From: Streptococcus sp. SN-1
GTDB taxonomy: Bacteria; Bacillota; Bacilli; Lactobacillales; Streptococcaceae
DNA length: 64,000 nucleotides
Direction: 5' to 3'
Assembly: GCF_041154385.1 (NCBI RefSeq)
Contig: NZ_AP028929.1
Span: 1,636,001 to 1,700,000 of the forward strand
Shown here in pieces: positions 3,785 to 49,990 of the stretch. Position numbers and translations under genes: made by a program. Position 1 is the stretch's first letter. Every line of letters begins with the position of its first letter. A model generated the notes under the pieces. That model saw only the letters and a program-made list of their open reading frames with translations, did no database searches and was not told the DNA's origin.

Positions 3785-3785
3785 G

Positions 3786-21526: not shown

Positions 21527-21570
21527 TGTAATTTCCCTTTCAGTTCTAATTCTAGTTGGTGGCGACTGTA

Positions 21571-21818: not shown

Positions 21819-21819
21819 A

Positions 21820-22998
21820 TTATTTTTTAGCTTCTAGGTAGTCTGCAATAGCAGCTACGTCCTTGTCTCCACGACCAGAGACATTGATGATGATAATATC
21901 ATCTTTACTTAGTTTTGGTGCACGTTTAACCGCTTCTGCGATGGCGTGCGAACTTTCAATCGCTGGGATAATTCCTTCTGTCTTGCTGAGAAGGAGGAGA
22001 GCCTGAACAGCTTCTTCATCCGTCGCAGCAACATATTCCACGCGACCTGAATCTTTGAAGTAGGCGTGTTCTGGGCCAACCCCTGGATAGTCCAATCCAG
22101 CTGAGATAGAGTAAACTGGAGCTAGCTCTCCATCTTCCTTAAAGACTGCATAAGTCTTCATGCCGTCGACAATTCCGATACTACCTTTTGTCATAGTAGC
22201 TGCGTGCTTGTCTGTATCAAGTCCGTGACCAGCAGCTTCAACCCCAACCAATTTAACTTCTTCATCAGCCACATACTGAGAAAAAGCACCGATGGCATTG
22301 GAACCACCACCTACACAGGCAATGACATAGTCTGGTAAACGGCCTTCTTTTTCTAAGATTTGACGGCGAGATTCTTCACTGATGACCTTTTGGAACTCGT
22401 GGACAATGGTTGGATATGGGTGAGGTCCCACAGCAGATCCCAGAACATAAAAGGCTTCCAAATCATTCATCCATGCTCCAAAGGCTGCATCAACAGCATC
22501 TTTGAGGGTACGAGTCCCTGTTTCAACTGCATGAACAGTTGCTCCCATCATCTCCATACGGAAAACATTGAGACGTTGACGTTCCACATCTTCTGCCCCC
22601 ATGTAGACATCACAGGCCATACCAAACTTGGCTGCAGCCGCTGCTGTCGCAACACCGTGCTGACCTGCCCCTGTTTCCGCAATCACTCGTTTTTTGCCCA
22701 TGCGTTTAGCCAAAAGAATTTGTCCTAAAACGTTGTTGAGCTTGTGAGAACCAAGGTGGTTAAGGTCTTCGCGCTTGAGATAAATCTTAGCGCCACCTAA
22801 GTGATCTGTCAAGCTTTCCGCAAAATAGAGCGGTGTTTCGCGACCTGAATAGTCCTTCAAGTAATGACGAAATTCTGCCAAAAATTCTGGATCATCCTTG
22901 TACTTGTCAAATGTCACTTCCAACTCGTCCAACAAAGCCTGAATCGGCTCTGGTACAAAACTTCCACCAAATTGTCCAAAATAACCTTTAGTTGTCAT
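21820..22998 (-). CDS. trpB2: second tryptophan synthase beta-chain paralog
   Basis: A 392-residue TrpB paralog upstream of the trp operon. It keeps the PLP lysine (K86), [13 protein letters not shown] and [10 protein letters not shown], so it should be an active PLP enzyme. The PLP motif is [10 protein letters not shown] instead of [10 protein letters not shown], and many surface positions differ from the operon copy. It has no trpA partner of its own. The start at MTTKGYF (22998) follows a GAGG ribosome site; a longer frame to 23097 runs into the T-box. It could use free indole, pair with TrpA, or make another beta-substituted amino acid. Confidence 0.88.
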
Positions 22999-23034
22999 AA
23001 AATTTTCCTCTTTCAGTATTGATTTCAAGATATG

Positions 23035-23287
23035 AAAAAAGCCCACACACAGAATATACTTCCATGTGAGGGCGTTGGTAACGCGGTGCCACCTCAATTA
23101 TAAAGGGACTATTCCCCTTTACATCTCTGCCTTGTCTAACAACAAGTTGCACTGTAAGGTGTGCGCACCGAATTTTCATTGTTTCAAATTCATTTTTAAA
23201 ATCAGCCCACTTTCACTACTTCCAACCACCTGTTCACAATCACCACAGGCTCCCTGAAGATCAAAAATAGTTACTTTTCTGATTTGT
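23035..23287 (-). promoter_or_regulatory. T-box riboswitch before trpB2
   Basis: A second T-box leader. The conserved AGGTGGCACCGCG lies at about 23083-23096, followed by a terminator whose arms CCTCACA/TGTGTGGG are at about 23041-23072 with a T-run to 23035. Stem I contains CCTGTGGTGATTGTGAACAGG-like terminal structure. TGG triplets occur on its 3' side (TGGTTGGAAG), compatible with a Trp specifier, but I could not fold it unambiguously. Confidence 0.88.
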
Positions 23288-23294
23288 TGAACTT

Positions 23295-23323
23295 ATTTTA
23301 ATACTTTGTTTTTTCTTTGTCAA
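23295..23323 (-). promoter_or_regulatory. promoter of trpB2 / trp transcription unit
   Basis: On the minus strand TTGACA (23318-23323), 17-bp spacer, TAAAAT (23295-23300). It is the strongest promoter upstream of the whole trp region. From here to 23510 no gene is seen; 23355-23410 holds two imperfect copies of an (A)TCGAAcGTGAaAATGTC-like sequence. Confidence 0.75.
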
Positions 23324-23510
23324 GACTTTTTTACAATTTTTTTGAAAGATGTGTGATTCGAATGTGATAATGTCTTTAGTAAATCGAACGTGAAAATGTC
23401 CCACTTATTAGAAATTGGATCCAACTCAATAGAAACTGAATGGAGGCTAAACAGAACTTACTTTAGAACACTCCATCTTTTCCATTAGGATTTTCAAGAA
23501 TTAAACAATA

Positions 23511-24512
23511 CTAGAAACTCTGTCTCCTAACAAGTTTAGTAGAAACTTCAACAGATGTGACACTTTCCCCCTTTATAATTGCTAATACCCCTTCAATCAT
23601 TTTTTTAGCCAACATGATATAATCAGGAGAAATTGTAGATAAAGCTGGAGTATAATATTGAGAAATTGGAATATTGTCAAATCCGATTATTGAAATATCA
23701 TCAGGAATAGTAATTTCCTTCTCATAGCAAGAACGAATCAATCCCTGTACTTTTTCATCACCGGATACAAAAATCAAATCAGGATAATTTTGATTAGATA
23801 GATGTCTTGTAGCATATAAATAAACCGAATCTATTGTAGTTAGACCATATACTACTTTCAAATCCATTTCATAGTTATTATCATTTAAAAAAGCACGAAC
23901 CCCTCTCTCTCGATCAATATTAACAAGGGATTCTCCTCCCATAAGTAACCACATACTATTAATGTTTTCTTTTGATACTAATTTCATCATGTCATAAGTG
24001 GCCTGAAAATTGTTGTTAGAAACATACACAACATTAGGTGTTCTAGATTCTCCAAAAACTATGAATGGCATTTTATTCTTTTGCAAGTAATTAATCCGAA
24101 TATCTTCTTTACTTTCATAAAATACTATTACACCATCTATCAAGCTTCCTGTACTCGAGATTATTGAATTACTAATTGTATCTTCTTCACTAAAATATTC
24201 AACAATAGCGTTAACACCATACTCTTTACAAGTTTGTAAAACTTTATCTAATAAAGTTTGAAACCAAATTAAAGGAAAAGAGTCGATTTTTTTTACAGAA
24301 ATCAATATATTTATAGCTTCTTTTTTAGTTAAATTTTTTGCATACGCATTTGGAATATACGACAATTCCTCTATAACTTTTTGAATCGCTTGATAAGTTT
24401 CTTCTTTAACATTTACTCCACCATTAATAACTCGTGAAACTGTTTTTGGAGAAAAACCTGATAAACGTGCAATATCATAAATAGTTACCTTTTTCCCATT
24501 TATATTTTTCAT
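23511..24512 (-). CDS. LacI-family transcriptional repressor
   Basis: A 333-residue LacI-type regulator. Residues 8-35 (VTIYDIARLSGFSPKTVSRV) are the helix-turn-helix with hinge helix, followed by a periplasmic-binding-protein-like sensor domain (SIIGFDNIPISQYYTPALSTI near the end). It lies beside, and in the same orientation as, a transporter-galE/galT locus. Two copies of a LacI-type 14-bp operator occur only at the two promoters of that locus, so it is the likely local repressor. The effector is probably a sugar or sugar phosphate; not known. Low GC, like the locus. Confidence 0.9.
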   Translation of the reverse strand: MKNINGKKVTIYDIARLSGFSPKTVSRVINGGVNVKEETYQAIQKVIEELSYIPNAYAKNLTKKEAINILISVKKIDSFPLIWFQTLLDKVLQTCKEYGVNAIVEYFSEEDTISNSIISSTGSLIDGVIVFYESKEDIRINYLQKNKMPFIVFGESRTPNVVYVSNNNFQATYDMMKLVSKENINSMWLLMGGESLVNIDRERGVRAFLNDNNYEMDLKVVYGLTTIDSVYLYATRHLSNQNYPDLIFVSGDEKVQGLIRSCYEKEITIPDDISIIGFDNIPISQYYTPALSTISPDYIMLAKKMIEGVLAIIKGESVTSVEVSTKLVRRQSF

Positions 24513-24543
24513 TTCAGTCCTCCATTACGAACATTCTAATATT

Positions 24544-24572
24544 ACTATACAATATTTAATTTTTTTTAACAA
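24544..24572 (-). promoter_or_regulatory. promoter of lacI-type gene
   Basis: Minus strand TTGTTA (24567-24572), 17-bp spacer, TATAGT (24544-24549), about 32 bp before the start codon. No TGACAyCG operator is visible here, so the repressor does not appear to control itself through that site. Confidence 0.6.
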
Positions 24573-24619
24573 GAGAATTTTGTAAATTATTTAAGATCCA
24601 CAAATACACAATATTAATT

Positions 24620-24988
24620 TTACAAATATTCTTCCCCTTCAAAAAAGTTTAAATTGCAATTCACACCTTTATTTTTAAGAATGTTTCCAACTTCACGACA
24701 AATAAATTCATATGAGAAAAAACTACCATAAAATTGTAGATTAACTTTTTCAGTAAAAATTGTTGGATTTATAAAAATATATAATAGCCTGTCAATGTAA
24801 CATTCTAACATAGACTTAATTTTTACTTTAAAAATAACATTTGTTATCAACTCATCAGGAGGTAAATGAAAGGGAAACACCATTTCACAAATATCATAAA
24901 AAGAAATAAATTTGTATACTTGTATCAAACAATTATTATCAAAATATTCTATTTTACCTAAATCAAAATAGATTTTAAAATCTTTCAT
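24620..24988 (-). CDS. hypothetical protein
   Basis: A 122-residue protein that I do not recognise. It has no signal peptide or membrane helix, is rich in Phe, Ile, Asn and Tyr, and contains scattered cysteines (C20, C34 and several later). AGAGG upstream of the ATG is an adequate ribosome site. It follows mgtC but is separated from it by a strong terminator-like hairpin at 25042-25075. Co-location suggests a role with the transporter locus, without further evidence. Confidence 0.6.
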   Translation of the reverse strand: MKDFKIYFDLGKIEYFDNNCLIQVYKFISFYDICEMVFPFHLPPDELITNVIFKVKIKSMLECYIDRLLYIFINPTIFTEKVNLQFYGSFFSYEFICREVGNILKNKGVNCNLNFFEGEEYL

Positions 24989-25041
24989 AAAAACCTCTGA
25001 GCAAAAATCTACTCAAAAATTAGATGATTAAAACATCTAAA

Positions 25042-25075
25042 AAACAAAAGGACAAAAACATCTGTCCCTTTGTTT
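25042..25075 (-). terminator. terminator after mgtC
   Basis: AAACAAAAGGACA (25042-25054) and TGTCCCTTTGTTT (25063-25075) form a 13-bp stem with one mismatch. On the minus strand it is followed by a T-rich run. It would end the operon that starts near 30405. Confidence 0.8.
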
Positions 25076-25083
25076 ACTAAATT

Positions 25084-25794
25084 TCAGCTAATTTCTTCGA
25101 CATAAATAACACCTACAATATTAGCAATTTCTTCCATCAAACGAAGATGTTCAAATCTTCCTGATAGTTCTAGAGTAATAAATGATGCTATTTTTTTTTC
25201 TGGAACATCAAAATATTCAATTCTTTCTGAATTAACATCTCCAAATGCAGTTCTAGAATCAGTCATTCTAATGCCATTCTCAGCACAGTATACTAGTACC
25301 CGATTATATGCCTCTGTAGATCTAACAACGATATACAATTCGATTATCTTTGAACGACTTTGAAGATATTTTTTTAAAGGTTGGAACATAGTTATAACAC
25401 TCCAAACAGAAATTGCTCCTAGTACGGCTCCTTCATAAAAACCAACACCTATAGCTAGACCGATTCCAGCTGAAGCCCATATTCCGGCTGCAGTTGTTAA
25501 ACCAGTTATTTTCTTTTTATCTGTAATAAGTATTGTTCCAGCCCCAAGAAAACCAACACCTGATATAACTTGCGCACCTAAGCGTGTAGGATCTCCTGTA
25601 CCAAATTTATAAGATACATACTCATTAGTCATCATAATTAAACATGCAGCCAGACAAACAATACTATGTGTACGAATACCTGCTGGTTGAGATTTACTTC
25701 CTCTCTCTAAACCAATTACTCCACCAATAACTAATGAAAGTACAATTCTTAATACAATTTCGATATATGATAGTCCTAAGCTTGTTGCCTGCAT
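25084..25794 (-). CDS. MgtC/SapB-family membrane protein
   Basis: A 236-residue protein with four to five N-terminal transmembrane helices and a C-terminal soluble domain. GGVIGLERGSKSQPAGIRTHSI and GVGFLGAGTILI are the MgtC/SapB signatures. MgtC proteins of pathogens help growth at low magnesium and modulate phosphate uptake and ATP level; the B. subtilis-type relatives are less defined. Its start is 3 bp from the permease stop, so it belongs to the ABC importer operon. Confidence 0.88.
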   Translation of the reverse strand: MQATSLGLSYIEIVLRIVLSLVIGGVIGLERGSKSQPAGIRTHSIVCLAACLIMMTNEYVSYKFGTGDPTRLGAQVISGVGFLGAGTILITDKKKITGLTTAAGIWASAGIGLAIGVGFYEGAVLGAISVWSVITMFQPLKKYLQSRSKIIELYIVVRSTEAYNRVLVYCAENGIRMTDSRTAFGDVNSERIEYFDVPEKKIASFITLELSGRFEHLRLMEEIANIVGVIYVEEIS

Positions 25795-25796
25795 TA

Positions 25797-27488
25797 TTAT
25801 TTCCTTTTTCTACTAGCTGGTCTCTGAGTAAAGTATAATACAGAACCAGAAATTATCATTAATACAATAGTATAAACGAACACAAGTGCTTGAGCATTTG
25901 AAGTTGCTGTTTCATCACCTGCTGAACGAATAGTTATACCCAGCGGTTGAGCTAATGGATGGTAAAGAAATACAGATAAGTCGAAGTCAGTTAATAAAGA
26001 GTTAAAGTTTAAAGCAATAACAGAGAGAACAACCGGTAAAATAAATGGAATGATAACCTTCATCATAGTATAAAAAGGTGAAGCACCCATACTTCTTGCT
26101 GCATCTTCCATCTCATCATCAACACTAAATAAAATAGCACGTACCATTCTATAAGAAAATGGGATTTTTACAACTATATATGCAATAAGTAGAATTACCA
26201 AACTACCTACCAAAATCTGATTCAAGACAAGAAATTGTGGCTGATTAAAAGTAAATAATAAACTTACTGCTAAAAGTGTACTTGGTAGTAACCAAGGAAG
26301 TAGAGCACCATATTCAAATAAGAAATCAAAGCGAGCTTTATGTTTTCTGACAACTCGAGCAAATATAACTGCGAGAATTGTTGCTGTTGTCGCAGCGATA
26401 ATAGAATAAATAAAGCTGACCAAGAATGGAGAGAATGCCGCACTATTACTAAAGAATAAGCGATAATTTTCTAAAGTAAAGTTTGATAATGTTAAGTTAC
26501 CTGTTTGAATTGCAACTGGATCTGTAAATGAGTATAATACTATAAAAATTAGTGGAAGCATGAAAACTGTGAACAATCCATATGCTACAATGTGAGCAAT
26601 GATATTCCAAGGCTTAGATGCAATTTTTTGTTTTTTAAGAGGCGCTTTAGTCTTAGAGATAGAAATATAATTTCCACCTTTTTCTATCTTATTCATGATA
26701 GTAAGCAAAATTGTAGTTGCAATACCTAAAATAATTGCAAGTAAGGCAGCTAAATCACGAGAATTCCCCATCCCTGCAAATGTAATAATCATTGGATTTA
26801 TAGTTTGAAATCCTTTACCACCAACAATCATGGGTGCTGCTACTGCAGACAAACCACTAAGAAAAACCATAATAGTAAGTGCAAATAGAGTTGGAATTAA
26901 GGTTGGTAACACTACTTTTCGGAAAACAGTAAATGGTTTTGCTCCCATATTTCGTGCAGCCTCAATAGTGTGATAGTCAACGCTTCGAATTGTATTTGTT
27001 AAAAACAATGTATGATTAGCAGTTCCTGAAAATGTCATAATGAATAAGACTGCACCATACCCAATAAACCAGTTAGGGTCTAAAGAAGGGATAACATTTT
27101 GTAAAAATTTTGTTATCAATCCATAAGGACCATAGACAAATTTATATCCAGTCGCTAAAACCACTCCTCCATAAATTAAAGAGGTCATATAGCCTAATTT
27201 TAAAATTTTAGCACCTTTAATATCAAAGTACTCTGTAAATAGAACACAAAGAATACCTACGACATTAACTGTAATAATGAGTGAAAATGCTAACTTAAAA
27301 CTGTTCATAATACTCTGAAGTGCCCTCTCAGATTTTAGAACACGATGTACAGCTTCAAGGGAAAATTCTCCTCCTTTTACAAATACATTCACTACTAGAT
27401 CAAAGTTTGGATAAATAATAAATGTTACTAGGAACCAGATTAACCCTAAACGAATAAGCCAATCTTTTAAATTTAATTTATGACGCAT
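25797..27488 (-). CDS. ABC transporter permease, two fused halves (FbpB/ThiP type)
   Basis: A 563-residue permease with about twelve transmembrane helices in two homologous halves. Each half has an EAA loop that docks the ATPase: [21 protein letters not shown] (residues ~175-195) and [21 protein letters not shown] (~450-470). Such fused permeases serve ferric iron, thiamine, 2-aminoethylphosphonate or hexose-phosphate importers. The membrane partner of the ATPase and lipoprotein encoded upstream. GC content is about 30 percent, clearly lower than the flanking core genes. Confidence 0.92.
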
Positions 27489-27499
27489 ACTGCACCTCC

Positions 27500-28510
27500 T
27501 TAAAATTGCAGAACGTCTGATGGTGTGATAAATAAGTCCACACTTTCTCCGACAGATCTAATAGCAGCCTGACTATCAATACTTGTTACATTAAGAATCT
27601 GACTTTCAGAAACTTTTATTGTATAGTGAATTGTAACTCCAGAAAACTCAACATCAATAATTGTTCCTTTTAGAATGAAATCTTGTTCAGTTTCACGATT
27701 GAATCGAACTTTCTCTAATCGAATGTATCCTTTTTTATCTTCTAAGAAAACGCTTGCATTTTTAAGTAATACTTCGTGGACTGTTTCATCGGTCAAAACA
27801 TTAATATCGCCAATAAAATCACATACAAATTCAGTTTGAGAATTATGATAAATCTCTACAGGTGTACCGACCTGTTCGATGTATCCATTGTTAAAGACTG
27901 CAATTCTATCAGATAAAGTTAAGGCTTCCTCTTGATCATGAGTAACATATAAAGTAGTAATACCTAACTCTTTTTGAAGTCTTTTCAACTCTTTTCTCAA
28001 ATCTACACGTAATTTTGCGTCAAGGTTTGACAATGGTTCATCTAGACAAAGAATTTTAGGTTCAAGAACCAGAGCACGAGCCAATGCTACCCTTTGTTGT
28101 TGACCCCCAGATAATTCTGATACATTACGCTGTAACTGTTGATCAGAGATCTTAATTTTTGCTGCTACTGCTGATACTTTAGCTTTAATAACATCTGGAG
28201 CTACCTTCTTAACTTTTAAACCAAATGCAATATTATCAAAAACAGTCATAGTTGGAAATAGCGCATAAGATTGAAATACAATACCAATTCCACGCTTTTC
28301 AGGTTCCAAATGAGTGACATCTGTTCCATTAACTTCAATACTTCCTGATGATGGATCTAGAAAACCTACCAATGCTCTCAAAGTAGTTGATTTACCACAT
28401 CCTGAAGGCCCAAGAAATGTAAAAAATTCACCTTCATGTATATCTAAATTCAGATTATCAATTGCAACAAAATCACCATATTTAATTTGAATATTATCAA
28501 ATTTAATCAT
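27500..28510 (-). CDS. ABC transporter ATP-binding protein (FbpC/PotA type)
   Basis: A 336-residue importer ATPase. Walker [10 protein letters not shown] (about 34-42), Q-loop QSYALFP, signature LSGGQQQR, Walker [14 protein letters not shown] and switch His in YVTHDQEE are intact. The C-terminal 100 residues form a TOBE-type regulatory domain. It is 11 bp upstream of the permease gene in the operon. Confidence 0.93.
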
Positions 28511-28543
28511 CTCACTAACTCCCTCTATTACTAAACCAAAAGC

Positions 28544-28583
28544 CTCTCTTTATTTCTTCCATAAATTTAGAAATAATAGAGAG
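28544..28583 (-). terminator. intra-operon hairpin after the binding-protein gene
   Basis: CTCTCTTTATTTCT (28544-28557) and AGAAATAATAGAGAG (28569-28583) pair with one bulge, 30-70 bases after the lipoprotein stop. No long T-run follows. It probably protects or partly terminates the transcript so that binding protein is made in excess over ATPase and permease. Confidence 0.6.
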
Positions 28584-28612
28584 ACTTGGACATAAAAATT
28601 AACTCTTATTTC

Positions 28613-29680
28613 TTATTGTACGTATTCTAATTCAGCTTTTTCTACCCATTCATCCAAATGCTTTCCAACAGCTTCCCAGTCAATATTTTGTGGTTTCACT
28701 TGATCAATAAATTTCTTAGTATCTTCTGGTAGATCTTTGAGGGCATCTTTATTTGCAGGAATAGATCCAAAGTTCTTACTATATTCTACTTGAATTTCTG
28801 ATTGACCAAACCAATCAATAAATTCTTTAGCTAACGCTTGTTTTTTACTAGTGCTTAAAACCATAGTTTGTTCAGTTACAAATGGTACACCAATCTCAGG
28901 AGTCATAACTTTGAAAACAACATTTTGTTCTTTTTGTCCAACTAATGCACCAGAACCCCACATCATTCCATATTGTATTGGATCTTCTTTGTCTAACATC
29001 TTAACAATTGAACTTTCTCCCTTTTGAAGAGTGTATGCATTTTTCAAATATTCTTTTGCTACTTCCCAACCTTTTTCGGAAACACCTAATTCACCTTTAT
29101 CATCAAGGTATCGAACTAAGATACTTGCTAGAATTGCCCGTCCTGTACCACCTTGAAGACCAGAAATTGAATACTTACCTTTATACTTACTACCTAATTC
29201 AGTCCAATCTTTAGGCATTTCTTTTACATCAGGCGCCCCAATTAAAACTAATGGTTGAACAATCACAGGATTATAATAATTATCTTTATCGGATAAAGAT
29301 TGATCAATTTTATCTAACCATTTAGGCTTGTACTGTACTAGTAATTTTTGATCTCTAATTTTATTTGAATCAACAGCACCAATTCCAAATACCATATCTG
29401 CAACTGCATTATTCTTCTCAGCAATAACACGGTCTGCTAATTGAGCGCCAGGGATATCAACCATTTTGATATTAAAACCAGCTTCTTTTGCTTTAGCAGT
29501 TAACCAATCACCACGACCATTTGAGACTGAGTTCGAATAGATTACTAGTTCTTGACTTTTATCAGCTTTTTCTTCAGATGAAGAAGCAGTCGTAGAATTT
29601 GAACCTCCAGAGCAAGCAGCAAGTGTAGTAAGAGCAACTCCCGTTGCAAGTACAGTAGACCAAACTTTCATTTTTTTCAT
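28613..29680 (-). CDS. ABC transporter substrate-binding lipoprotein
   Basis: A 355-residue lipoprotein. The signal peptide MKKMKVWSTVLATGVALTTL ends in the lipobox LAAC (Cys at residue 23), followed by a Ser/Thr linker. The mature part ELVIYSNSVSNGRGDWLTAKAKEAG resembles the ferric/2-aminoethylphosphonate/hexose-phosphate class of binding proteins. I do not see the tandem tyrosines in the usual iron-binding position, so an iron substrate is not supported by the sequence. The gal genes and 2H esterase nearby suggest an organophosphate. Confidence 0.88.
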   Translation of the reverse strand: MKKMKVWSTVLATGVALTTLAACSGGSNSTTASSSEEKADKSQELVIYSNSVSNGRGDWLTAKAKEAGFNIKMVDIPGAQLADRVIAEKNNAVADMVFGIGAVDSNKIRDQKLLVQYKPKWLDKIDQSLSDKDNYYNPVIVQPLVLIGAPDVKEMPKDWTELGSKYKGKYSISGLQGGTGRAILASILVRYLDDKGELGVSEKGWEVAKEYLKNAYTLQKGESSIVKMLDKEDPIQYGMMWGSGALVGQKEQNVVFKVMTPEIGVPFVTEQTMVLSTSKKQALAKEFIDWFGQSEIQVEYSKNFGSIPANKDALKDLPEDTKKFIDQVKPQNIDWEAVGKHLDEWVEKAELEYVQ

Positions 29681-29704
29681 GATAAGTTCTCCTTTTTAAT
29701 TATT

Positions 29705-30364
29705 TTATTTAAATTTTTCGTGATATGGAACAAATTGTCTCATATCTTCAAATACAGTATAGTCAATACGGTTTACAGTAATAGTTGGAATCTTCTCTAA
29801 TAAAATTTCAGTTAATTCTGCTCTGACTTTAGTAAACTCTTCTTCCTCCTCTTCGGTTAGAGGAATCCGAAGATACCCAATTGAAATATGGAATTGATAT
29901 CTATCATGATTAGGGAAACGAACACCTGCTTTTTCTGAGACATAAGTACGAATTTCTTCTAATCTCTTTGCAGAAGCTTCATCTGCAGGTTCAACTAGTA
30001 TGTTTTGTTTTCCCATTTCAGTTACACGCATATGAATTTCTTCATCCAACAATGGAAAAATTTCAAGTTGTTTAGCAAAGTAATCATGTATTTCCTGTAA
30101 AGGTGTATCTAGAGGAAGATTACTGCTCCAAAACTCCGTTTCACGATTTTCATGGCACAACAATTCAATTACAGTCATGTGAATAGAATTCCTTGGAGTT
30201 AAAGTAAACTTATCGATAAATGGTAATTCTCTATAACGTGATTGAATAATATCAACAACTTCCATCAAATCTTGTTTAGTATAAAGATTTGCTACAACTG
30301 TATTCCCAGGGAAATGATTAAATTCCCCATTCTCTTTGAACTTAATTTTTGTTAAGTTTTTCAT
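29705..30364 (-). CDS. 2H phosphoesterase superfamily protein (DUF1868-like)
   Basis: A 219-residue protein with two H-x-T/S motifs: SIHMTVIELL (about residues 61-70) and YQFHISIGYL (about 155-164). The pair H-x-T/S is the catalytic signature of 2H phosphoesterases, which open cyclic phosphodiesters (LigT, ThpR, CPDase, DUF1868). No signal peptide, so it acts in the cytoplasm. It is the first gene of the ABC importer operon, 24 bp before the lipoprotein gene. I infer a role in processing the imported compound. Confidence 0.78.
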   Translation of the reverse strand: MKNLTKIKFKENGEFNHFPGNTVVANLYTKQDLMEVVDIIQSRYRELPFIDKFTLTPRNSIHMTVIELLCHENRETEFWSSNLPLDTPLQEIHDYFAKQLEIFPLLDEEIHMRVTEMGKQNILVEPADEASAKRLEEIRTYVSEKAGVRFPNHDRYQFHISIGYLRIPLTEEEEEEFTKVRAELTEILLEKIPTITVNRIDYTVFEDMRQFVPYHEKFK

Positions 30365-30387
30365 ATAAAGACCTTCTTTTTTATATT

Positions 30388-30441
30388 TGACATCGGTGTC
30401 ATCTTGTTTACATTATACAATGAAACCGTTTCCTTTGTCAA
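30388..30441 (-). promoter_or_regulatory. operon A promoter with LacI-type operator and cre-like site
   Basis: Minus strand -35 TTGACA (30436-30441), 18-bp spacer, -10 TATAAT (30412-30417). Ten bases downstream lies the operator TGACACCGATGTCA (30388-30401), a near-perfect 14-bp palindrome with central CG as in LacI-family sites. GGAAACGGTTTCAT in the spacer and TGAAAGCGCTTGACA over the -35 resemble catabolite (cre) sites with mismatches. Confidence 0.85.
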
Positions 30442-30547
30442 GCGCTTTCAAACATTTTTTTAAAAAAATTTATCTTTCATTAAATATGCATTTCATTAAA
30501 AGGTTAAGTAATTTTTCCAAAATACAGCACTCATATAGACAGTATCA

Positions 30548-31558
30548 TCAATTATAGCCATTGGGATTTTTTGATTGCCAATTCCATGTATCTCTACACA
30601 TGTCTTCAATCGATTTTGTTGTCCTCCAATTTAATTCCTTATATGCTTTGTCTGCATTTGCATAACAAGTCGCAACGTCTCCTGATCGTCTTGGTACAAT
30701 TTTATACGGAATTGGAACCTTATTAACACTTTCAAATGTATTTACAAGTTGTAATACACTTGTGCCTTCTCCTGAACCAAGGTTATAAATATAAACATCT
30801 GTTTTTTCAGATACTTTTTCTAAAGCTTTTATATGTCCTATTGCTAAATCTACTACATGGATATAATCGCGAACACCAGTACCATCTACCGTATCATAAT
30901 CATCTCCAAAAACACTTAGCTCTGGTCGCTTACCTACCGCTACTTGTGCAATAAAAGGCATTAAGTTGTTAGGAATGCCTGATGGATCTTCTCCAATCAA
31001 CCCCGACTCATGAGCACCAATCGGATTGAAATAACGAAGCAACGCAATACTCCACTCTGAATCTGCTACATGAACATCTTTTAAAATTTGTTCAAGCATC
31101 ACTTTTGTGTACCCATACGGATTCGTTGCACTTGTCGGCATCGTCTCAATAAGGGGAGACTGATTGTGAACGCCGTATACAGTCGCACTCGATGAAAATA
31201 CAATCTTTTTAACATTAAACTCTGACATCACTTCAACAAGAGCTAATGTGCTCATAATATTATTTTCGTAATACATTACAGGCTTTTGCACGGATTCGCC
31301 GACAGCTTTGTATCCTGCAAAATGAATTGCAGCCTCAATAGATTCTTGTTCAAAAACTTTTCTCAATCCTTGTTTATCACAAACATCTAATTCGTAAAAC
31401 GCAGGACGTTGCCCTGTAATTGCTTCAATACGATCTAATACTAAAATGCTTGAGTTTGAAAGGTTGTCGACAATAACGACTTCCTTACCTAAATTTAGTA
31501 ATTCTACTACGGTATGGCTACCAATATAACCAGCTCCGCCTGTTACCAATATTGCCAT
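30548..31558 (-). CDS. galE: UDP-glucose 4-epimerase
   Basis: A 336-residue short-chain-dehydrogenase-fold epimerase interconverting UDP-glucose and UDP-galactose. NAD motif TGGAGYIGSH (6-15), catalytic SSSATVYG and YGYTK (Y-x3-K), and the sugar-binding LRYFNPIGAHESGLIGEDP are all present. Its GC content is higher than that of the galT upstream, suggesting a separate origin. It is the last gene of the LPXTG-PP2C-PhoU-galT-galE operon. Confidence 0.95.
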   Translation of the reverse strand: MAILVTGGAGYIGSHTVVELLNLGKEVVIVDNLSNSSILVLDRIEAITGQRPAFYELDVCDKQGLRKVFEQESIEAAIHFAGYKAVGESVQKPVMYYENNIMSTLALVEVMSEFNVKKIVFSSSATVYGVHNQSPLIETMPTSATNPYGYTKVMLEQILKDVHVADSEWSIALLRYFNPIGAHESGLIGEDPSGIPNNLMPFIAQVAVGKRPELSVFGDDYDTVDGTGVRDYIHVVDLAIGHIKALEKVSEKTDVYIYNLGSGEGTSVLQLVNTFESVNKVPIPYKIVPRRSGDVATCYANADKAYKELNWRTTKSIEDMCRDTWNWQSKNPNGYN

Positions 31559-31570
31559 TTTTACTTCCTC

Positions 31571-33046
31571 CTAATTAATTCCAACCGATTTAACAAATCT
31601 CATAAATGCTTCTTGTCCGGTTTGAGTATTCTTATAAACACCTGCATCTTCGAGAACTCTCGCAAATACTTGCCCTACTTCATGTTGAACTACGCTATGA
31701 ACCTCTTCCTCTTTAAGTCCAGGATATTTTTCTTTCAATTGAACGGCCCATTCTAAATGATAATCAGCAATTGCGTTATCTTTTCCTAAAAGATATTTCT
31801 CAACTTCTTCTAACTCTGTTTTCAAACGAGGTGGTAAAATCGCAAGTCCCATCACTTCGATTAACCCAATATTTTCCTTTTTAATATGTTGTACATCTTG
31901 ATGAGGATGGAAAACACCATCTGGGTATTGTTCAGTAGTATGATTATCTCTTAGAACAATATCTAATTCATATCTTCCGTCCACTTTACGAGCAATAGGA
32001 GTCACCGTATGGTGTGGGACATCTGCAGTCATTGCAATGATGTCTACTTCTAAATCTGAATATTCTCTCCACTTATTTAGAATTTTAGTAGCTAAATCTA
32101 ACAAGCGATTTTTATTTTCACTTTGTAACCTAATTACTGACATTGGCCATTTTACAATACCAGCATTAACATCCTCAAAGTCTTTAAAACGAAATTCACT
32201 CTCAAATTTTGCTTTTTCCATTGGGAAAATATATTTCCCTCCCTGGTAGTGGTTATGACTAAGAATGGAGCCTCCTGAGATAGGAAGATCAGAATTTGAA
32301 CCAGCAAAATATCCTGGCAAAATATCAACAATCTCCAATAATTGTTCAAATGTTTTAGAGGTAATAGCCATTGGTACATGTTGACTATTCAAAAATATCG
32401 CATGCTCATTAAAATATGAGTAGGGAGAATACTGGAATCCCCATACTTCGTCACCAAGTTTCAACCGAATAATTCTATGATTCGAACGTGCTGGATAATT
32501 TATTCGACCTTGATATCCTTCATTTTCCATACATAGTAAACATTTAGGATAATTAGTTGCTTTTACTAATTTTTCAGCAGCAATTGTTTTTGGATCTTTT
32601 TCGGGTTTTGACAAATTTATCGTAATCTCTAGCTCTCCGTATTTAGTTGATGCTCTAAACTCAATATTCTTAGCAATAGCAGAAGTTTTAATATAATCAC
32701 TATCTTTACTTAACTTATAAAACTCTTCAACTGCTTCTTGAGGTGATATATCATATGAACTCCAAAAAATATCATTTAATCGACTAGGTAAAGGAACTAT
32801 GAAATTCATTAACTCTGCTCCTAAACATTCCTTTTCCTCGATTAAATCTTTAATTTTACCGTTTTTTAAGGCGATTTCCACTAAGTAATCTTTTATTTGT
32901 TTCAGGTCATTTTCATCGGAAATGCGATCAGTTCCCTCCTCACCTATTAACGCTAGTACTCTATTTTTCACATATATTTTGTCAATTTCATTATACATTC
33001 CGTATTCAATTACTCTATCAACAAAATTATCAATAATTGTTTTCAT
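31571..33046 (-). CDS. galT: galactose-1-phosphate uridylyltransferase, Firmicutes type (first copy)
   Basis: A 491-residue GalT of the long Firmicutes class. It exchanges UMP between UDP-glucose and galactose-1-phosphate. Visible are [49 protein letters not shown] and [10 protein letters not shown], the same blocks as in the second copy at 48491-49972. GC about 30 percent here against about 48 percent there, so this is not a recent duplication. No galK lies in this operon. Confidence 0.93.
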
Positions 33047-33058
33047 ATATTTTTCTTT

Positions 33059-33700
33059 CTAATTTATGTTCCCATATTTTCTATACATTATCCATTTATA
33101 AATTGATTGCGTAGTATGAGCAATTTTATCAAGGTGATGAATAATATCCAAAGCACCAATTACTTCAGAAACGTTCCCATCATCTTCAAATATGTAATTC
33201 ATGATTTTCTTTTCAATATTTATACTAAGCTCTTCTATCTCATTCTGTTTTTGTATAACAACCATATCTAAACATCCAGATTGTTCCTCTCTATAACAAG
33301 ATATAGCCCTATTCATATGCAGTCCGATAACTTCATGAAGTATTTTTATTTCTGAAATAATTTTCTTCAAAATTTCATTGTTTTGAATAATCTGTAGATT
33401 TTTTAAAATTTCAACAATTCTATCCCCAATACGTTCAATGTCAGTTGATATTTTTATTACACTAATAATTCTTCTTAAGTCATATGAAACGGGATGTTGT
33501 AAACAAATTAACTCATATCCTTTTTTATCAACATTTAGAACTGACTCATTTATGATTAAATCTTCTTTAATCAATTCTATTCGTTCTTCATTTGATAAAT
33601 ATTCAAATAACTTCTCATATTTATCAAGCACAGATACCCAAATGGTCTCTAAATTATTTGATAATTCTATAATTTCATTTTCTAAATATAACCTTAACAT
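33059..33700 (-). CDS. PhoU-like protein
   Basis: A 213-residue all-helical protein with two repeats resembling PhoU (RIISVIKISTDIERIGDRIVEI in the first, GALDIIHHLDKIAHTTQSI in the second). The E/DxxxD pattern is the metal-cluster motif of the family. PhoU connects phosphate importers to two-component signalling. No phosphate (Pst) genes lie nearby, so it may adjust phosphate balance when a phosphorylated compound is taken up. Function inferred from family and context only. Confidence 0.8.
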   Translation of the reverse strand: MLRLYLENEIIELSNNLETIWVSVLDKYEKLFEYLSNEERIELIKEDLIINESVLNVDKKGYELICLQHPVSYDLRRIISVIKISTDIERIGDRIVEILKNLQIIQNNEILKKIISEIKILHEVIGLHMNRAISCYREEQSGCLDMVVIQKQNEIEELSINIEKKIMNYIFEDDGNVSEVIGALDIIHHLDKIAHTTQSIYKWIMYRKYGNIN

Positions 33701-33757
33701 TTAGGTACCTCTTCTTAACAAAGTTCAATAGTAACAATTAATATTTTAAACAATATA

Positions 33758-34504
33758 TCAAACATCAATAACTAGAATACTTGCATCATCTTTCTTTCCA
33801 TAGATTGGATCAATAGCAGAAGAATTAAATCTCATCTTAATTAACTCTTCAAAAGTTTTATTTTGATTATTTTGATAGAATTCATAAAAGCCATCGCTCA
33901 TTAAAACAATTTGTTCACTAGTAACATCTATTTGATTAATAATAGCATGGTCTAAAAATCTCTCATCCAACGAACCTATCCAGTACCCACTCGGTTGATT
34001 AGATAATTTTCTGATTTTTTGTAAAATAATTTTTTTATTTAAAACACTATTTGTACCAATTGAGTCTTTTATCTCATTTTTCCCTTTTTCAAATAAGTTA
34101 TCTACTCTATGATCAGTTATTTCCATTTCGTTTACTAACATGACGCAGTCACCTAGCATCATATACTCCAACTTTTTTTCTGAAAGTTTAGCAAATATAA
34201 AAGCAAATGTTGGTAAGCGATAATACTCTGTTAATTCATATGAGTTTAAACCGATTTCATCTTTAACCTCGAGTAAAGCAGTTTCAAATATTTGTTTAAG
34301 AGTTTTTGATTCTTTACAATTAACCGACAAACTTTCTGATAAAATATGTACAACTTCTGAGACTGAATAACCTATCTCCTCTTTAGAATTATATAAATCT
34401 GTAGCTCCATCAATAATCCAAAAATACTGATTTTGTGAACCTACAGCATCCTCATTTTCTACGGAACTTCCTTGTATCGAACAAATTTTATTTATCTTTG
34501 CCAT
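33758..34504 (-). CDS. PP2C-family protein phosphatase-like protein
   Basis: A 248-residue PP2C-like protein. Motifs in order: NEDAVG (17-22), IIDGATD (30-36), MLGDCVMLV, IVLMSDGFYE and KKDDASILVI, which together give the metal-binding aspartates. The usual DG-x-GG is DGATD, seen in several bacterial PP2C proteins. It has no membrane anchor. Its start overlaps the surface-protein stop by 17 bp. The target is unknown; it might act on the PhoU-like protein's pathway. Confidence 0.8.
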   Translation of the reverse strand: MAKINKICSIQGSSVENEDAVGSQNQYFWIIDGATDLYNSKEEIGYSVSEVVHILSESLSVNCKESKTLKQIFETALLEVKDEIGLNSYELTEYYRLPTFAFIFAKLSEKKLEYMMLGDCVMLVNEMEITDHRVDNLFEKGKNEIKDSIGTNSVLNKKIILQKIRKLSNQPSGYWIGSLDERFLDHAIINQIDVTSEQIVLMSDGFYEFYQNNQNKTFEELIKMRFNSSAIDPIYGKKDDASILVIDV

Positions 34505-36596
34505 AATACTTCAACCCTTTTAGTGTCAAAAGTAAACCAATTCCTGTCACTGTTAAGAATAGTTCCATAATCTTGTTCGAACCAGTCTTTGGTAATTTTT
34601 GTTTTACATCTACTATTTCTTTAGATTTATTAATATGATTTTCAGTTTCTCTTCCATCTCCAACTATTTTATGGTTCACTTCTTCTGTCTTATTATCTTG
34701 TTTATTGTCGATCTTGTCATTCATTTGTCTATTATCTTTACTTGAGTTAAACTCTCCGTTCTTCTGGTTACTATCAATTACATTATTTGAATTAGATTGT
34801 TTTTCATGCACATATGAACTTGTTTTAAATTTTTCCTCTTTGTTTTTTTCTTTTTCGTTTTTATCACTTAAATTATTTGTTACAATTTTGTAAAGCCCAT
34901 TCTCCGTTACAATATTGAAATTACCATCGCTATCACGTATAACAGGTTCTTTCCCATTTGCATTAGATTTGATGAATGATATATACTTACCGGATAAATT
35001 ATAAAATTGGTTATTTAAAACGGTTATTTTACCCTTTGAATCCTCAATAACAATTCCTTCTTTACCACCGAATATACTATTCTCTGACACTACTAAATTA
35101 TCACTAACTCGTAATAATTCAATATTTGGTTGTTCTGTTTCCTTAGAATTATTATTAATTACATTTTTTGTTACAGTAATATCTGATACTTTTCCTAAAT
35201 ATTCTGCACTATCTTTTGCTACTCTAATAGCCTTTGTTTTAGGATCAGAAATATAAAATGTATTTTCAGTAATAACGACTTTCTTATTTAAATCAAGTTC
35301 ATCTTTTACATTTTTATAACTAAAAGCATTTATTAAGGCTGCACCATTTTCTCTATAATGTACACTTTCTCCTTTTACTTTCTTATCAAATCTATTTCCT
35401 TTAATTAAAATATCAGTAAATCCTGTAAAACGTACACCAGAATACATCATGTTATCAAAATGATTATTTAAAATTTTAATATTAGAGGGGTTCTGTGTCG
35501 ACAATGTTTGATAGTGTGTACCAATTGCTGTTACTAATTCTCCAGATTTATCACTTTTACCAAAATATGAATTTTGAATAGTAATATTTTCAGATTTTTT
35601 CCCATCATCATTCAAGGCATAAGGAAAACCTTTTCTAGTTAATGGTTCAATCTGAATGCTCTCCTTACTTATGATTTGCCCATCCTTCATCGTTTTGGGT
35701 AAGGCTTGCCCAAGAAAACGAGAATTATCAACTAATACATTTTTCGAACCTGCAATTTGAATAGCATGCCCTTGATAACTATCCTTGAATGTTACATTTT
35801 TTATAGTTACGTTATTTGAATTCCCAATAGCAAATGCACCTGAAGAATTTATAAGTGGTAGATTTTTTGCTTTAGTTCCTTCTTCATTCAAAGCACCGTT
35901 CATATCAATCGTACCACCAGAATAACTAATATCTTCTGTTGGGCCCCATTCTACTTGCGCACCATCATCCGTAAATAAACCTGTCATAAAAACAATAGAA
36001 GGGTGATTCTTAATATTTATACCATTTAGAATGGTAGCTTTCTCATTCAATTCTAAGTGTGTATGACTTTTTAAAAAAACAATTTCTTTTACTAAATAAG
36101 TTCCTTCAGGAAAATATACATTTCCTCCACCTAGCCCTTGAGCTGCAGCATCTATTGCATCTTGAATTGCTTGTCGATCATCATGAACCCCGTCACCTAT
36201 TGCTCCATAATCTTTAACATTCAAAGCTACGTGTTCGTTCAGATTAGTACTTAAAATAGTATTCACTTCCATCCCAGAGATGTTACCCATCATAGTATCA
36301 TTTGTTATATCAGGTTTATTTTGATTAATACTCACTCCTCCATTATTATCAGTACTTAAACTTGAATTGTTATCAAGACTGAGAGTATCAGAATGGGGTT
36401 CCGCAGATAATGATGTAGATGTGCTACTCAACAAAGAGTTCATTTGCATATTATCTTTAGACGAAGAAGTTTCACCAACTACTTCATTAGCTAAAACACT
36501 TTGTGTTCCAATAAATAAAACCGCTAAGAGAACTGAGCAAACTCCCACCTTAGACTTACGAATAGAGAAAACCTCATTTTGTTGAAAAGATTTCAT
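34488..36596 (-). CDS. LPXTG cell-wall-anchored right-handed beta-helix (pectate-lyase-fold) protein
   Basis: A 702-residue surface protein. Signal peptide with an FSIRKSKVGVCSVLLA motif (YSIRK type), a Ser/Asn-rich linker, then the pectate-lyase_3 lead-in VKDYGAIGDGVHDDRQAIQ (about 125-145) and a long series of beta-helix rungs (NVTIKNVTF, NILVKGNRF-like repeats) to about residue 570. A charged Lys/Asn/Glu-rich spacer and LPKTG (668-672), hydrophobic segment and Lys-rich tail follow, for sortase anchoring. Likely a polysaccharide lyase/hydrolase or binder; the substrate is unknown. ATG at 36596 follows GGAGG; an upstream TTG is rejected. Confidence 0.92.
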   Translation of the reverse strand: MKSFQQNEVFSIRKSKVGVCSVLLAVLFIGTQSVLANEVVGETSSSKDNMQMNSLLSSTSTSLSAEPHSDTLSLDNNSSLSTDNNGGVSINQNKPDITNDTMMGNISGMEVNTILSTNLNEHVALNVKDYGAIGDGVHDDRQAIQDAIDAAAQGLGGGNVYFPEGTYLVKEIVFLKSHTHLELNEKATILNGINIKNHPSIVFMTGLFTDDGAQVEWGPTEDISYSGGTIDMNGALNEEGTKAKNLPLINSSGAFAIGNSNNVTIKNVTFKDSYQGHAIQIAGSKNVLVDNSRFLGQALPKTMKDGQIISKESIQIEPLTRKGFPYALNDDGKKSENITIQNSYFGKSDKSGELVTAIGTHYQTLSTQNPSNIKILNNHFDNMMYSGVRFTGFTDILIKGNRFDKKVKGESVHYRENGAALINAFSYKNVKDELDLNKKVVITENTFYISDPKTKAIRVAKDSAEYLGKVSDITVTKNVINNNSKETEQPNIELLRVSDNLVVSENSIFGGKEGIVIEDSKGKITVLNNQFYNLSGKYISFIKSNANGKEPVIRDSDGNFNIVTENGLYKIVTNNLSDKNEKEKNKEEKFKTSSYVHEKQSNSNNVIDSNQKNGEFNSSKDNRQMNDKIDNKQDNKTEEVNHKIVGDGRETENHINKSKEIVDVKQKLPKTGSNKIMELFLTVTGIGLLLTLKGLKYYGKDK

Positions 36597-36660
36597 ATTA
36601 GCCTCCAATTAAAAATATTATGTCCTAATTTAATATTCATATAAATTCCATACCAGAAAA

Positions 36661-36711
36661 TGACACCGCTGTCATTTTCTTTATAATATATTTTTAAATC
36701 AAAATTGTCAA
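36661..36711 (-). promoter_or_regulatory. operon B promoter with LacI-type operator
   Basis: Minus strand -35 TTGACA (36706-36711), 17-bp spacer, -10 TATTAT (36683-36688). Eight bases downstream is TGACAGCGGTGTCA (36661-36674), the same operator as in front of operon A with different centre bases. A TGAAAGCG-containing, cre-like sequence lies about 15-30 bp upstream of the -35 (36738-36751). Confidence 0.85.
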
Positions 36712-37517
36712 GGAATAACACAATAAAATATCAAAATTGTGAAAGCGTGACCATTTATATATCTAACCATACTTCTAATAATTCTTTAGCCTTCCATTCA
36801 AAAGTGATTACTATCTTTCTTAGCTTGAACATAAAAATATCCTATTCACTGTATTTAAAGCATGTTGATATCTCGTAAAATACTAATTTATAAATACAAA
36901 AACAAATATCTTGTCATGCAAGCATTCACCAGGTATATTTACATGAATATCGTTCATATAGCGGATTGAAATCAAAACAATACAATATATTTCTTAAATA
37001 GATTTTCTATAAAAGCTAAATTCAAGCTCTATAAAAATAGACGCAGTTCTTCTAAAATACTGGAATAGGACATATAGATCATTGTAGACACGTATTTTAT
37101 AGATTATTTCAAAAGAATGACTAGAACATGAAAAATAGTCTCAAAACTTTGAACAATATTCTGAAAACAAAAAAGAAAGACGCGAGTTTCCACAACCTCA
37201 TTCGTGGAAACTCGCGTCTTTCAAAAAATAGGGTGAATTGAAAACTAGAACAAGACACTACATTTTCTAAATGATGCCTAATAAAAATTCTAAATGCTAC
37301 ACCAAATTGCTCACATCTCATTTCAAACCATACAGTATATTGAAACTATAAGAGTACACCTTTGCTTCTAAAATATTGCTAGAAATTAATTTGACTATCC
37401 TGATTGATTTGTCCTGTTTTTATTTCATTTTACTATAGGACTTTCAATTGAAAACAACAGTTTTACACTCAATTAGACTTTTTAGAAACAGAATCACTAT
37501 TACTTGACTGTAGTTTG
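36712..37517. other. gene-free stretch with one strong hairpin
   Basis: About 800 bp without a credible gene. Short frames such as 36755-36832 (minus, reading MFKLRKIVITFEWKAKELLE...) may be relics of a lost gene. The only clear structure is the 19-bp perfect stem at 37175-37222. AT-rich; it separates the accessory locus from the teichoic-acid genes. Confidence 0.6.
37175..37222 (-). terminator. very strong 19-bp hairpin terminator
   Basis: Left arm 37175-37193 (GAAAGACGCGAGTTTCCAC) and right arm 37204-37222 are perfectly complementary with a 10-base loop. On the minus strand it is followed by TTTTTTGTTTT. It would terminate the transcript from 37518-39479, leaving a 3' UTR of about 300 nt. 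GC-rich stem in an AT-rich region. Confidence 0.8.
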
Positions 37518-38744
37518 TCATTTTTTTGATGAAGTTAGCACTTTTTCAGAAACTGTTTTGAAAGTCTCAATGATATAGTCCACTTCTTCATCGCTTAGTT
37601 TAGTATGAAGAGGGAGCGTAATTTCATTTTCAAAGAAGGCATAGGCCTTAGGATAGTTCGCCATATCAAAGCCAAGATTCTTATAGGCTGTCAAGAGCGG
37701 AAGTGGTTTGTAGTGTACATTACTTGCAATTCCTGCTTTGGCCAATTCTTGGATGATGAGATTGCGTTCTTCTAAGCTTGCTCCTTCTACATGGGTGATG
37801 TAGAGGTGACGTGAAGATTCGACAGTTTCAGTCTTGTGTGCCAATGGATGGATACGAGAACCTGCAAAACCACTATCATAGCGGTCCACGATGTCCTTAC
37901 GACGGCCAAGCAAACCAGAGTAACGGTCCAATTGTACCAAACCAAGGGAAGCCATGATATCAGTCATATTGCACTTGTAGGCTGGTGTGACGATATCGTA
38001 TTCCCATGAACCTAACTGCATCTTAGCCAGGGCATCCTTTGTTTGACCATGAAGGGAAAGGATTTGGAATTCCTTGTACATTTCTTCGTCATCAATCGCT
38101 GGATTGGCTTTCCAAGTGGCACTTCCACCCTCCGCAGTTGTAAAGTTCTTAACGGCGTGGAATGAGAAGGAAGTAAAGTCCGCGATTGATCCAGCTGGTT
38201 GTCCTTTATAAGTAGACCCCAAAGCGTGGGCACTATCAGAAACAATCACAATACGGTTAAAGGCCTTTTGCCACTTGCTTGAAGCAGTAAAGAGATCACG
38301 TTTTTTCTCCACAACTTGGAACAAACGATCATAGTCGCAAACAATCCCTGCGAGCTCTACTGGGATGATCACCTTGGTCTTTTCAGTGATAGCTTGCTCA
38401 AGCAAGTCATAGTCCATCTCAAACGTATCTGCTTGAATATCCACCATGACAGGGGTTGCCCCTACGTGAGTGATAACACTACATGAAGCTGTATAGGTCA
38501 TGGCTGGAACGATGACTTCATCACCAGGTCCAACTTCCAAGACGCGCAAAATCAACTCAAGCGCGGCAGTCGCAGAGTTAAGACAGACAGTCTTGGGCGT
38601 CTGTGTGTATTGAGACAAGCGACGCTCCAGTTCTTTGGTCTTAGGACCTGTTGTAATCCAACCAGAACGCAGGGTATCCGCTACTTCAGCAATTTCTGCT
38701 TCCGTAATATCGGGTGGTGAAAATGGAATATTGTAATTTGGCAT
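37518..38744 (-). CDS. DegT/DnrJ-family sugar aminotransferase (proposed AATGal synthesis)
   Basis: A 408-residue PLP aminotransferase of nucleotide sugars. The PLP lysine is K199 in SFHAVKNFTTAEGG, with the N-terminal RSGWITTGPKTKELE and CLNSATAALEL blocks. Pneumococcal homologs next to the sugar transferase that follows are assigned to synthesis of the 2-acetamido-4-amino-2,4,6-trideoxygalactose (AATGal) unit of teichoic acid; I base that on genomic context known to me. The ATG at 38744 has an AAGGAG ribosome site. Confidence 0.88.
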   Translation of the reverse strand: MPNYNIPFSPPDITEAEIAEVADTLRSGWITTGPKTKELERRLSQYTQTPKTVCLNSATAALELILRVLEVGPGDEVIVPAMTYTASCSVITHVGATPVMVDIQADTFEMDYDLLEQAITEKTKVIIPVELAGIVCDYDRLFQVVEKKRDLFTASSKWQKAFNRIVIVSDSAHALGSTYKGQPAGSIADFTSFSFHAVKNFTTAEGGSATWKANPAIDDEEMYKEFQILSLHGQTKDALAKMQLGSWEYDIVTPAYKCNMTDIMASLGLVQLDRYSGLLGRRKDIVDRYDSGFAGSRIHPLAHKTETVESSRHLYITHVEGASLEERNLIIQELAKAGIASNVHYKPLPLLTAYKNLGFDMANYPKAYAFFENEITLPLHTKLSDEEVDYIIETFKTVSEKVLTSSKK

Positions 38745-45895: not shown

Positions 45896-45937
45896 AAGAA
45901 CATTGGCTCAAGCCTATTTAAAATTGAATATCATTTT

Positions 45938-49972: not shown

Positions 49973-49990
49973 TATAGAGCCTCCTTTTGA

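Follow-up and report, generated by a model that had tools for sequence, protein, structure and literature searches.

What does the 13-kb gene block at positions 23511..36711 of this window do, and do its two minus-strand operons and LacI gene serve one purpose? The window is the whole 64,000-nucleotide stretch that was analysed, positions 1,636,001-1,700,000 of the one-contig, 2,111,706-base genome of Streptococcus sp. SN-1, a pneumococcus-like mitis-group Streptococcus; S. shenyangsis D19 was the nearest among the fetched loci (97.3% over 20,991 bases). The block is the pneumococcal pfbA island, SP_1821-1833 in TIGR4 and approximately SPD_1606-1617 in D39 (gene lists in PMC4380338 and PMC6722419; published results throughout come from the accessible passages of each cited paper), and its products include an adhesin as well as a lipoprotein that has been investigated both in iron uptake and as a component of vaccines. 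We consider it somewhat better than an even bet that the whole island works, under LacI repression, as a single system for scavenging a small organic phosphodiester; a sugar-1-phosphodiester or a sugar-1,2-cyclic phosphate would be the most likely cargo. No claim of the locus as a phosphodiester system was found in the openly accessible literature searched. If the cargo is indeed an organic phosphodiester, the iron assignment would have to be revised, a metabolic role would become likely for PfbA, and a substrate class could be assigned to an importer family of Bacillota, spirochaetes and a fusobacterium. A first-pass annotation, made from the letters alone, had read the locus as a phospho-galactose scavenging system; this interpretation is partly supported overall, and its core emerges strengthened. 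The features of the island are as follows.

23511..24512, minus strand: LacI-family regulator (SP_1821 type), proposed repressor of both operons (Pfam LacI and Peripla_BP_3)
24620..24988, minus strand: small protein of the SP_1822 type, 122 amino acids, without a Pfam or NCBIfam match
25084..25794, minus strand: MgtC/SapB membrane protein, last gene of operon A (PF02308)
25797..27488, minus strand: fused permease of the ABC importer, two BPD_transp_1 stretches (Pfam; best NCBIfam relatives PhnV/PhnU2, below cut-offs)
27500..28510, minus strand: ATPase of the ABC importer (Pfam; best NCBIfam relative PhnT2, below cut-off)
28613..29680, minus strand: lipoprotein (SPD_1609), substrate-binding protein of the importer; fold of the AfuA/P5PA/PhnS/FbpA type, FbpA iron ligands absent
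29705..30364, minus strand: predicted 2H phosphodiesterase, first gene of operon A (PF08975; HMTV and HISI motifs)
30388..30401, no strand assigned: putative LacI operator of operon A, TGACATCGGTGTCA on the plus strand (motif search, conservation)
30412..30441, minus strand: operon A promoter, TTGACA, spacing 18, TATAAT (sequence)
30548..31558, minus strand: galE-2 (Pfam)
31571..33046, minus strand: galT (galT-1 in D39), paralogue of the galKT galT at 48491-49972 (Pfam, NCBIfam, tree)
33059..33700, minus strand: PhoU-like protein (SPD_1614; PF01895)
33758..34504, minus strand: PP2C-like protein (PF13672, E 2.3e-09)
34488..36596, minus strand: pfbA, opening gene of operon B, for an LPXTG surface protein whose core is a beta-helix (PDB 4mr0, 3zpp; groove conservation)
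36661..36674, no strand assigned: putative LacI operator of operon B, TGACACCGCTGTCA on the plus strand (motif search, conservation)
36683..36711, minus strand: operon B promoter, TTGACA, spacing 17, TATTAT (sequence)

Operon B (36596-30548) encodes, in order, the YSIRK/LPXTG beta-helix protein, PP2C_2, PhoU, GalT and GalE, and operon A (30364-25084) the 2H protein, the lipoprotein, the ATPase, the 563-residue permease and MgtC. Annotation and motif searches confirmed this layout, the identity of every gene, the promoters and the placement of a shared 14-bp palindrome 8-10 bp after each -10, all as first described. The earlier statement that operon B has galT and galE and no galK was also borne out: neither galK nor a recognised galactosidase was found in Pfam and NCBIfam scans of the island proteins, and a galK-galT pair (48491-51169) was located in the same window, ~12 kb from the island. 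The GC content of the island was 31.5%, compared with 41.7% and 42.7% in its flanks.

One question is whether one regulator governs both operons. The palindrome TGACANCGNTGTCA lies 10 bp after the TATAAT of operon A and 8 bp after the TATTAT of operon B. It occurs exactly twice in the window, compared with no occurrence in 100 window shuffles, and exactly twice in the whole genome, both times at the island promoters, where ~0.1 sites would be expected from the window base composition applied to the whole genome. With one mismatch there were 8 genome sites against 5 for a backward control, so that only the exact sites are telling; the six one-mismatch sites elsewhere, four inside open reading frames (ORFs; L134, L137, L138, L139) and two outside (L135, L136), were set aside. 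Among 18 related loci with a 2H gene, the exact palindrome precedes that gene in 17, and the operator is retained wherever the island-type LacI is retained. The exception, L034, has no exact palindrome before its 2H gene, and LacI was not seen in its fetched stretch either. All 16 of the 2H loci having pfbA carry the palindrome before it, 15 exactly and S. merionis with one mismatch (in some loci the longest reading frame begins upstream of the palindrome, and the next start was used). In Granulicatella elegans, where PP2C-galT, 2H-importer and pfbA form three separate units, each unit has one copy. Across 147 Streptococcus genomes, the exact motif was present in 13/13 with PF08975 and 26/134 without, and the backward-control motif in 7/147. 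Five of those 26 genomes were inspected, and the exact site was inside or at the edge of an ORF in four and beside a LacI fragment in the fifth. A palindrome with a central CG at each promoter, conserved together with the regulator, is what a LacI regulon should display, and comparative genomics thus makes it almost certain that both operons form one LacI regulon, in support of the single repressor predicted in the first-pass annotation.

Two side observations concern these operators. In L132 (G102), at ~3581-4034, a 125-residue LacI fragment is followed by an exact operator with no 2H operon, which resembles the remnant of an island that was lost. In S. infantis (L030:16262-16997), a second mgtC with its own exact operator follows lacI, so that MgtC seems to be in the regulon twice. 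We also observed a cre-like CcpA site at 30421-30434, with one mismatch, overlapping the operon A promoter. With the motif that we took to be the cre consensus, there were 6 matches compared with 2.17 expected, and 5 of 100 shuffles reached as many, placing such sites only weakly above chance.

What, then, would the importer carry? A profile of 19 binding proteins identified 194 relatives; the best 80 named loci among them underlie the locus counts given here. In 71 of them, an enzyme expected to cleave phosphodiesters was encoded within three ORFs of the importer: glycerophosphodiester phosphodiesterase (GDPD) in 35, 2H in 18, a metallo-beta-lactamase-fold protein in 10 (including Paenibacillus, and nearest to PhnP, below its cut-off), an endonuclease/exonuclease/phosphatase (EEP) fold in 6 and a phosphodiester glycosidase in 2. 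Partner identity was tested with Pfam and NCBIfam on representatives (L038, L053, L062, L067, L069, L074, L084) and extended to the others through BLAST linkage. Because phosphodiester cleavage is what these five Pfam families share, the importer quite likely carries a phosphodiester. MgtC relatives were found in 44/80 loci (13 in L019-L031, 31 elsewhere), and galE, phoU and PP2C relatives in 15 loci each.

The 2H loci have a distinct history within this family. In an importer tree of 63 of the 80 loci (11 near-copies of the mitis type were omitted, along with L061, L063, L064, L082, L083 and L090), the seven 2H rows cluster in a single clade (100/99), nested in a Lactobacillales group of 16 rows whose other members have GDPD or no partner. 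Around that node, relative to the Lactobacillales neighbours, a ~700-residue fusion of LacI with a solute-binding protein (SBP) gives way to a classic LacI, and galT and pfbA appear. It was observed that galT is present in 17/18 2H loci and in 0/62 others, while pfbA is found in 17/80 loci, only one of them without 2H (L050). The island galT scores 742.3 bits against TIGR01239 (galT_2), whose cut-off is 650.15. In a tree of the window's galT and 7 of the 17 locus galTs, with the fragmentary matches L123, L124, L126 and L127 omitted, the label of locus galT requires two changes, and the mitis and G. elegans locus galTs stand apart from the galKT galT.

Many of the GDPD loci have a regulator of ~700 residues, as noted at L038:14771-16813, L045:7407-9584, L047:2283-4472 and L071:3352-5808. 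In the L071 protein, tested with Pfam, a LacI helix-turn-helix is joined to a solute-binding-protein domain, and the other three align with this protein over most of their length. The idea that the sensor of these fusions is a copy of the importer binding protein was rejected, as phmmer gave no match at E 10 between four regulators and four binding proteins.

The enzyme encoded first in operon A has intact HMTV and HISI motifs, and H62, T64 and H159 are invariant in 34 sequences. Its predicted structure has the 2H fold, shared with the 2H cyclic phosphodiesterases Appr>p CPDase (1fsi), LigT and Atu0111 (2fsq), a likeness of fold and of HxTx/HxSx motifs. By class, the PF08975 protein is accordingly a predicted 2H phosphodiesterase, in agreement with its original naming; no substrate for the PF08975 branch turned up in the openly accessible literature searched.

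The lipoprotein was examined for what its cleft could hold. Its AlphaFold model (pLDDT 91.3) has the AfuA-type fold and is equally near FbpA, AfuA, P5PA and PhnS-like proteins. Fold comparison was discarded as a ligand test, since binders of iron, glucose-6-phosphate (G6P) and pyridoxal 5'-phosphate and the aminoethylphosphonate-type binder stm0429 all score alike. A single-sequence search of the PDB gave no match at E 0.001, and a profile search matched both iron binders and binders of phosphate compounds. We take the five iron ligands of cFbpA from C. jejuni to be H14, Y15, Y146, Y202 and Y203. In the profile alignment, the corresponding positions hold V52, S53, T179, W241 and G242; W241 is invariant in 81 homologues, T179 is Thr in 80/81, and no Tyr or His was found at any of the five columns in these homologues. 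Meanwhile, the Gly-Thr of the G6P binder 8x1a aligns with G178-T179 (G in 78/81, T in 80/81), and through 8x1a the pair would be equivalent to G149-T150 of AfuA. AfuA and P5PA both have Gly-Thr at the phosphate site (PMC4546632, PMC8427247). The alignments therefore make a phosphate end of the ligand plausible and indicate that an FbpA-type iron site is absent. Together with the phosphodiesterase neighbours, these cleft residues support the earlier suggestion of an importer of the organophosphate type. AfuABC, the hexose-phosphate importer of Actinobacillus pleuropneumoniae (PDB 4r72-4r75), was likewise regarded as an iron importer before its structure revealed G6P (PMC4546632). The island differs from it in having a partner phosphodiesterase, LacI control and galT/galE.

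The surface protein is PfbA (SP_1833), with E values of 0 to 4mr0_A and 1.3e-267 to 3zpp_A. PfbA has been treated in print as an adhesin, and we would place it in a nutrient system as well. A gut Eubacterium (L050) has, next to the same importer, a PfbA homologue in which the groove is retained, which suggests an enzyme or a glycan binder. In the mechanism that we propose, PfbA would bind or trim the parent glycan outside the cell, and the lipoprotein, ATPase and fused permease would take up the phosphodiester, as the cleft residues and the partners in many genera suggest. The 2H enzyme would open it to a phosphomonoester. That this product is galactose-1-phosphate is nearly an even call, falling a little short of one. 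In the form with galT and galE, galactose-1-phosphate would pass through GalT and GalE to UDP-galactose, UDP-glucose and glucose-1-phosphate, the genomic link with galT pointing this way. LacI would bind TGACANCGNTGTCA just after both -10s and be released as a phosphorylated galactose compound accumulates. That the cargo is galactose-1,2-cyclic phosphate or a galactosyl phosphodiester is possible but less likely than not. The same odds apply to the fuller picture of a new catabolic route in pneumococci and some relatives, in which PF08975 2H converts surface-released galactose-1,2-cyclic phosphate or galactosyl-1-phosphodiester to galactose-1-phosphate for the Leloir pathway without galactokinase, with PfbA as the surface enzyme or binder. 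At its core, the original idea was that 2H opens a phosphodiester brought in by the importer and so supplies GalT. This also gains from published work: galT-1 rose 49-fold on galactose once GalT-2 was removed (PMC4380338), which fits a LacI inducer accumulating behind the GalT step, galactose-1-phosphate or a derivative. Two further elements of that idea found no support. Release of a phosphorylated galactoside by PfbA is not supported, as PfbA had no lyase activity on the polysaccharides tried (PMC3718772), nor is a phosphate-load role for PhoU, PP2C and MgtC, as a phoU-like deletion had no growth phenotype (PMC4913102). These three would be ancillary.

Several observations weigh against the phosphodiester proposal, in addition to the lyase result and the iron phenotypes considered below. 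The AfuA sugar contacts His205/Asp206/Glu229 are not kept in the lipoprotein, which has WGSG and SPEIGVP where 8x1a has HD and EG; the organic part of the ligand is thus unreadable, and the protein was not filed as AfuA. No phosphodiester-cleaving partner was seen in 9 of the 80 loci (L048, L061, L064, L078, L082, L083, L090, L093, L098), a set that includes short contigs (L061, L064, L082) and high-GC Microbacterium with poor ORF calling (L083, L090), and in L083 a calcineurin-type phosphoesterase lies two plus-strand ORFs away. Since the rows are related, the 2H-galT link represents few evolutionary events, not 17. The otherwise complete locus L128 (G039) retains pfbA, the 2H operon, lacI and both operators but naturally lacks galE, galT and phoU, and of its PP2C a 98-residue piece is left; because of this loss and of L087, which has 2H without galT, the galactose genes are an add-on, not the core. 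Expression data also raise doubts. Galactose had no inducing effect on galT-1 and galE-2 was lowered (PMC4595796), and lacD rose 87-fold in the same galT-2 mutant (PMC4380338), so the galT-1 rise need not be specific and the effect may be wider. Finally, a transposon study links the regulator SP_1821 with purine metabolism and antibiotic sensitivity (PMC9174251), which our proposal leaves unexplained.

Among other explanations, the one that survives best is import of glycerophosphodiesters such as glycosylated glycerophosphate, derived from teichoic acids or from deacylated glycolipids; 2H would replace GDPD on cargo of this kind, and galTE would do no more than use the galactose freed from it. 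GDPD is the commonest partner, the 2H clade sits among GDPD loci, and the GDPD-linked loci of Streptococcus suis, Abiotrophia, Clostridium, Erysipelothrix and others resemble the island in their related importer, frequent MgtC and adjoining phosphodiesterase. They differ in having GDPD and not 2H, commonly a LacI-HTH/SBP fusion and not a classic LacI, and no galT. GH65-family genes adjoin the importer and an EEP-fold phosphodiesterase in three loci (L072 and L074 by Pfam, L086 by BLAST linkage), a hint that the cargo carries sugar there too. However, GalT needs galactose-1-phosphate, which by established chemistry is not yielded by cleavage of a glycerol ester; galT occurs only with 2H in the loci examined, and the island has neither galK nor a recognised galactosidase. 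We regard this explanation as possible but on the unlikely side. One further GDPD match was observed in Paenibacillus prosopidis (L077:6653-9907), where a 1084-residue protein stands directly before the importer; it combines a pectinesterase domain with that short match and is perhaps an outside counterpart of the route.

The published assignment of operon A ('operon 804') is ferric iron import, with SPD_1609 as the iron-uptake protein (PMC4738293, PMC6682666). When the medium was depleted of iron, the SPD_1609 mutant contained less of it than the wild type and the complemented strain and also grew more poorly than they did, and growth was restored by hemin and not by FeCl3 or ferrichrome (PMC6682666). 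A pia/piu/1609 triple mutant held less iron than the pia/piu double mutant, and a pia/piu/pit mutant made more SPD_1609 (PMC4738293). Conserved Glu, Tyr and Asp were named as the iron ligands by the authors (PMC6682666), and the fold also matches FbpA proteins. On the other side, the FbpA-type ligand positions have V/S/T/W/G, with neither Tyr nor His in 81 homologues, the neighbours across genera are phosphodiesterases, iron content in normal medium equalled that of the wild type (PMC6682666), and no direct iron-binding measurement was found in the passages of PMC4738293 and PMC6682666. The induction is not iron-specific either, because lacB rises alongside (in two ratio columns of the pia/piu/pit mutant, SPD_1609 is at 1.83 and 8.46 and lacB at 3.76 and 84.16, with other sugar genes up; PMC4738293) and because an aliB mutant has operon A proteins up 24.6 to 107.5-fold or switched on (PMC6687184). 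We think that catabolite derepression or lost LacI repression explains the induction better than iron, although this account leaves the FeCl3 result unexplained. Taken together, ferric iron as the cargo is improbable.

We similarly give little credence to the island being an adhesion and virulence cassette around PfbA, with metabolic genes that are co-regulated but unrelated. PfbA does bind fibronectin and plasmin(ogen) (PMC3718772), and one comparison lists the block at 100% of pneumococcal strains and describes it as absent from mutualistic relatives (PMC6722419). Contrary to that absence, S. oralis and S. infantis strains carrying the block were found here; the Eubacterium homologue adjoins the same importer, and in S. 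merionis pfbA diverges from a single run of 2H-importer-mgtC-phoU-galT-galE-lacI. Uptake of a phosphonate such as 2-aminoethylphosphonate is very improbable: although the best NCBIfam relatives are of the PhnS, PhnT2 and PhnU2/V types, from the PhnSTUV and PhnS2T2U2 importers, and the Paenibacillus partner is nearest PhnP, all Phn matches fall below curated cut-offs (PhnS2/T2/U2: 55.2 vs 392.75, 352.1 vs 457.7 and 99.7 vs 593.25 bits), and no phosphonate-degrading, C-P cleaving enzyme was among the neighbours scanned (representatives only).

The S. oralis and S. infantis copies comprise the same module (matching ~23422 to 36779 of the window) with other flanking genes, and by this comparison the island appears to move as a unit. 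A ~108-base stretch beside it (window 37330-37437) is also present at the L128 junction (~6629-6736) where galE-galT-phoU is missing; its length is reminiscent of the pneumococcal RUP repeat. No repeats of at least 40 bases were found within 23300-37600. Part of the island, SP_1828-30, has been named 'RD11' (PMC6722419). The 'Pfba' of PMC6018154 was rejected as a mention of the gene, being the fba promoter.

Outside the island, a strong terminator-like element (37175-37222, a 20-pair stem and a T-run) lies between a sugar-transaminase gene and the island. On the minus strand at 20165-23290, a second trpB (21820-23097), led by a T-box of its own (23065-23290), stands directly before a T-box-led trpE, and it is 58% identical to a further trpB at ~16069-17235. 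A purine riboswitch aptamer was observed at 45920-46015 of the window.

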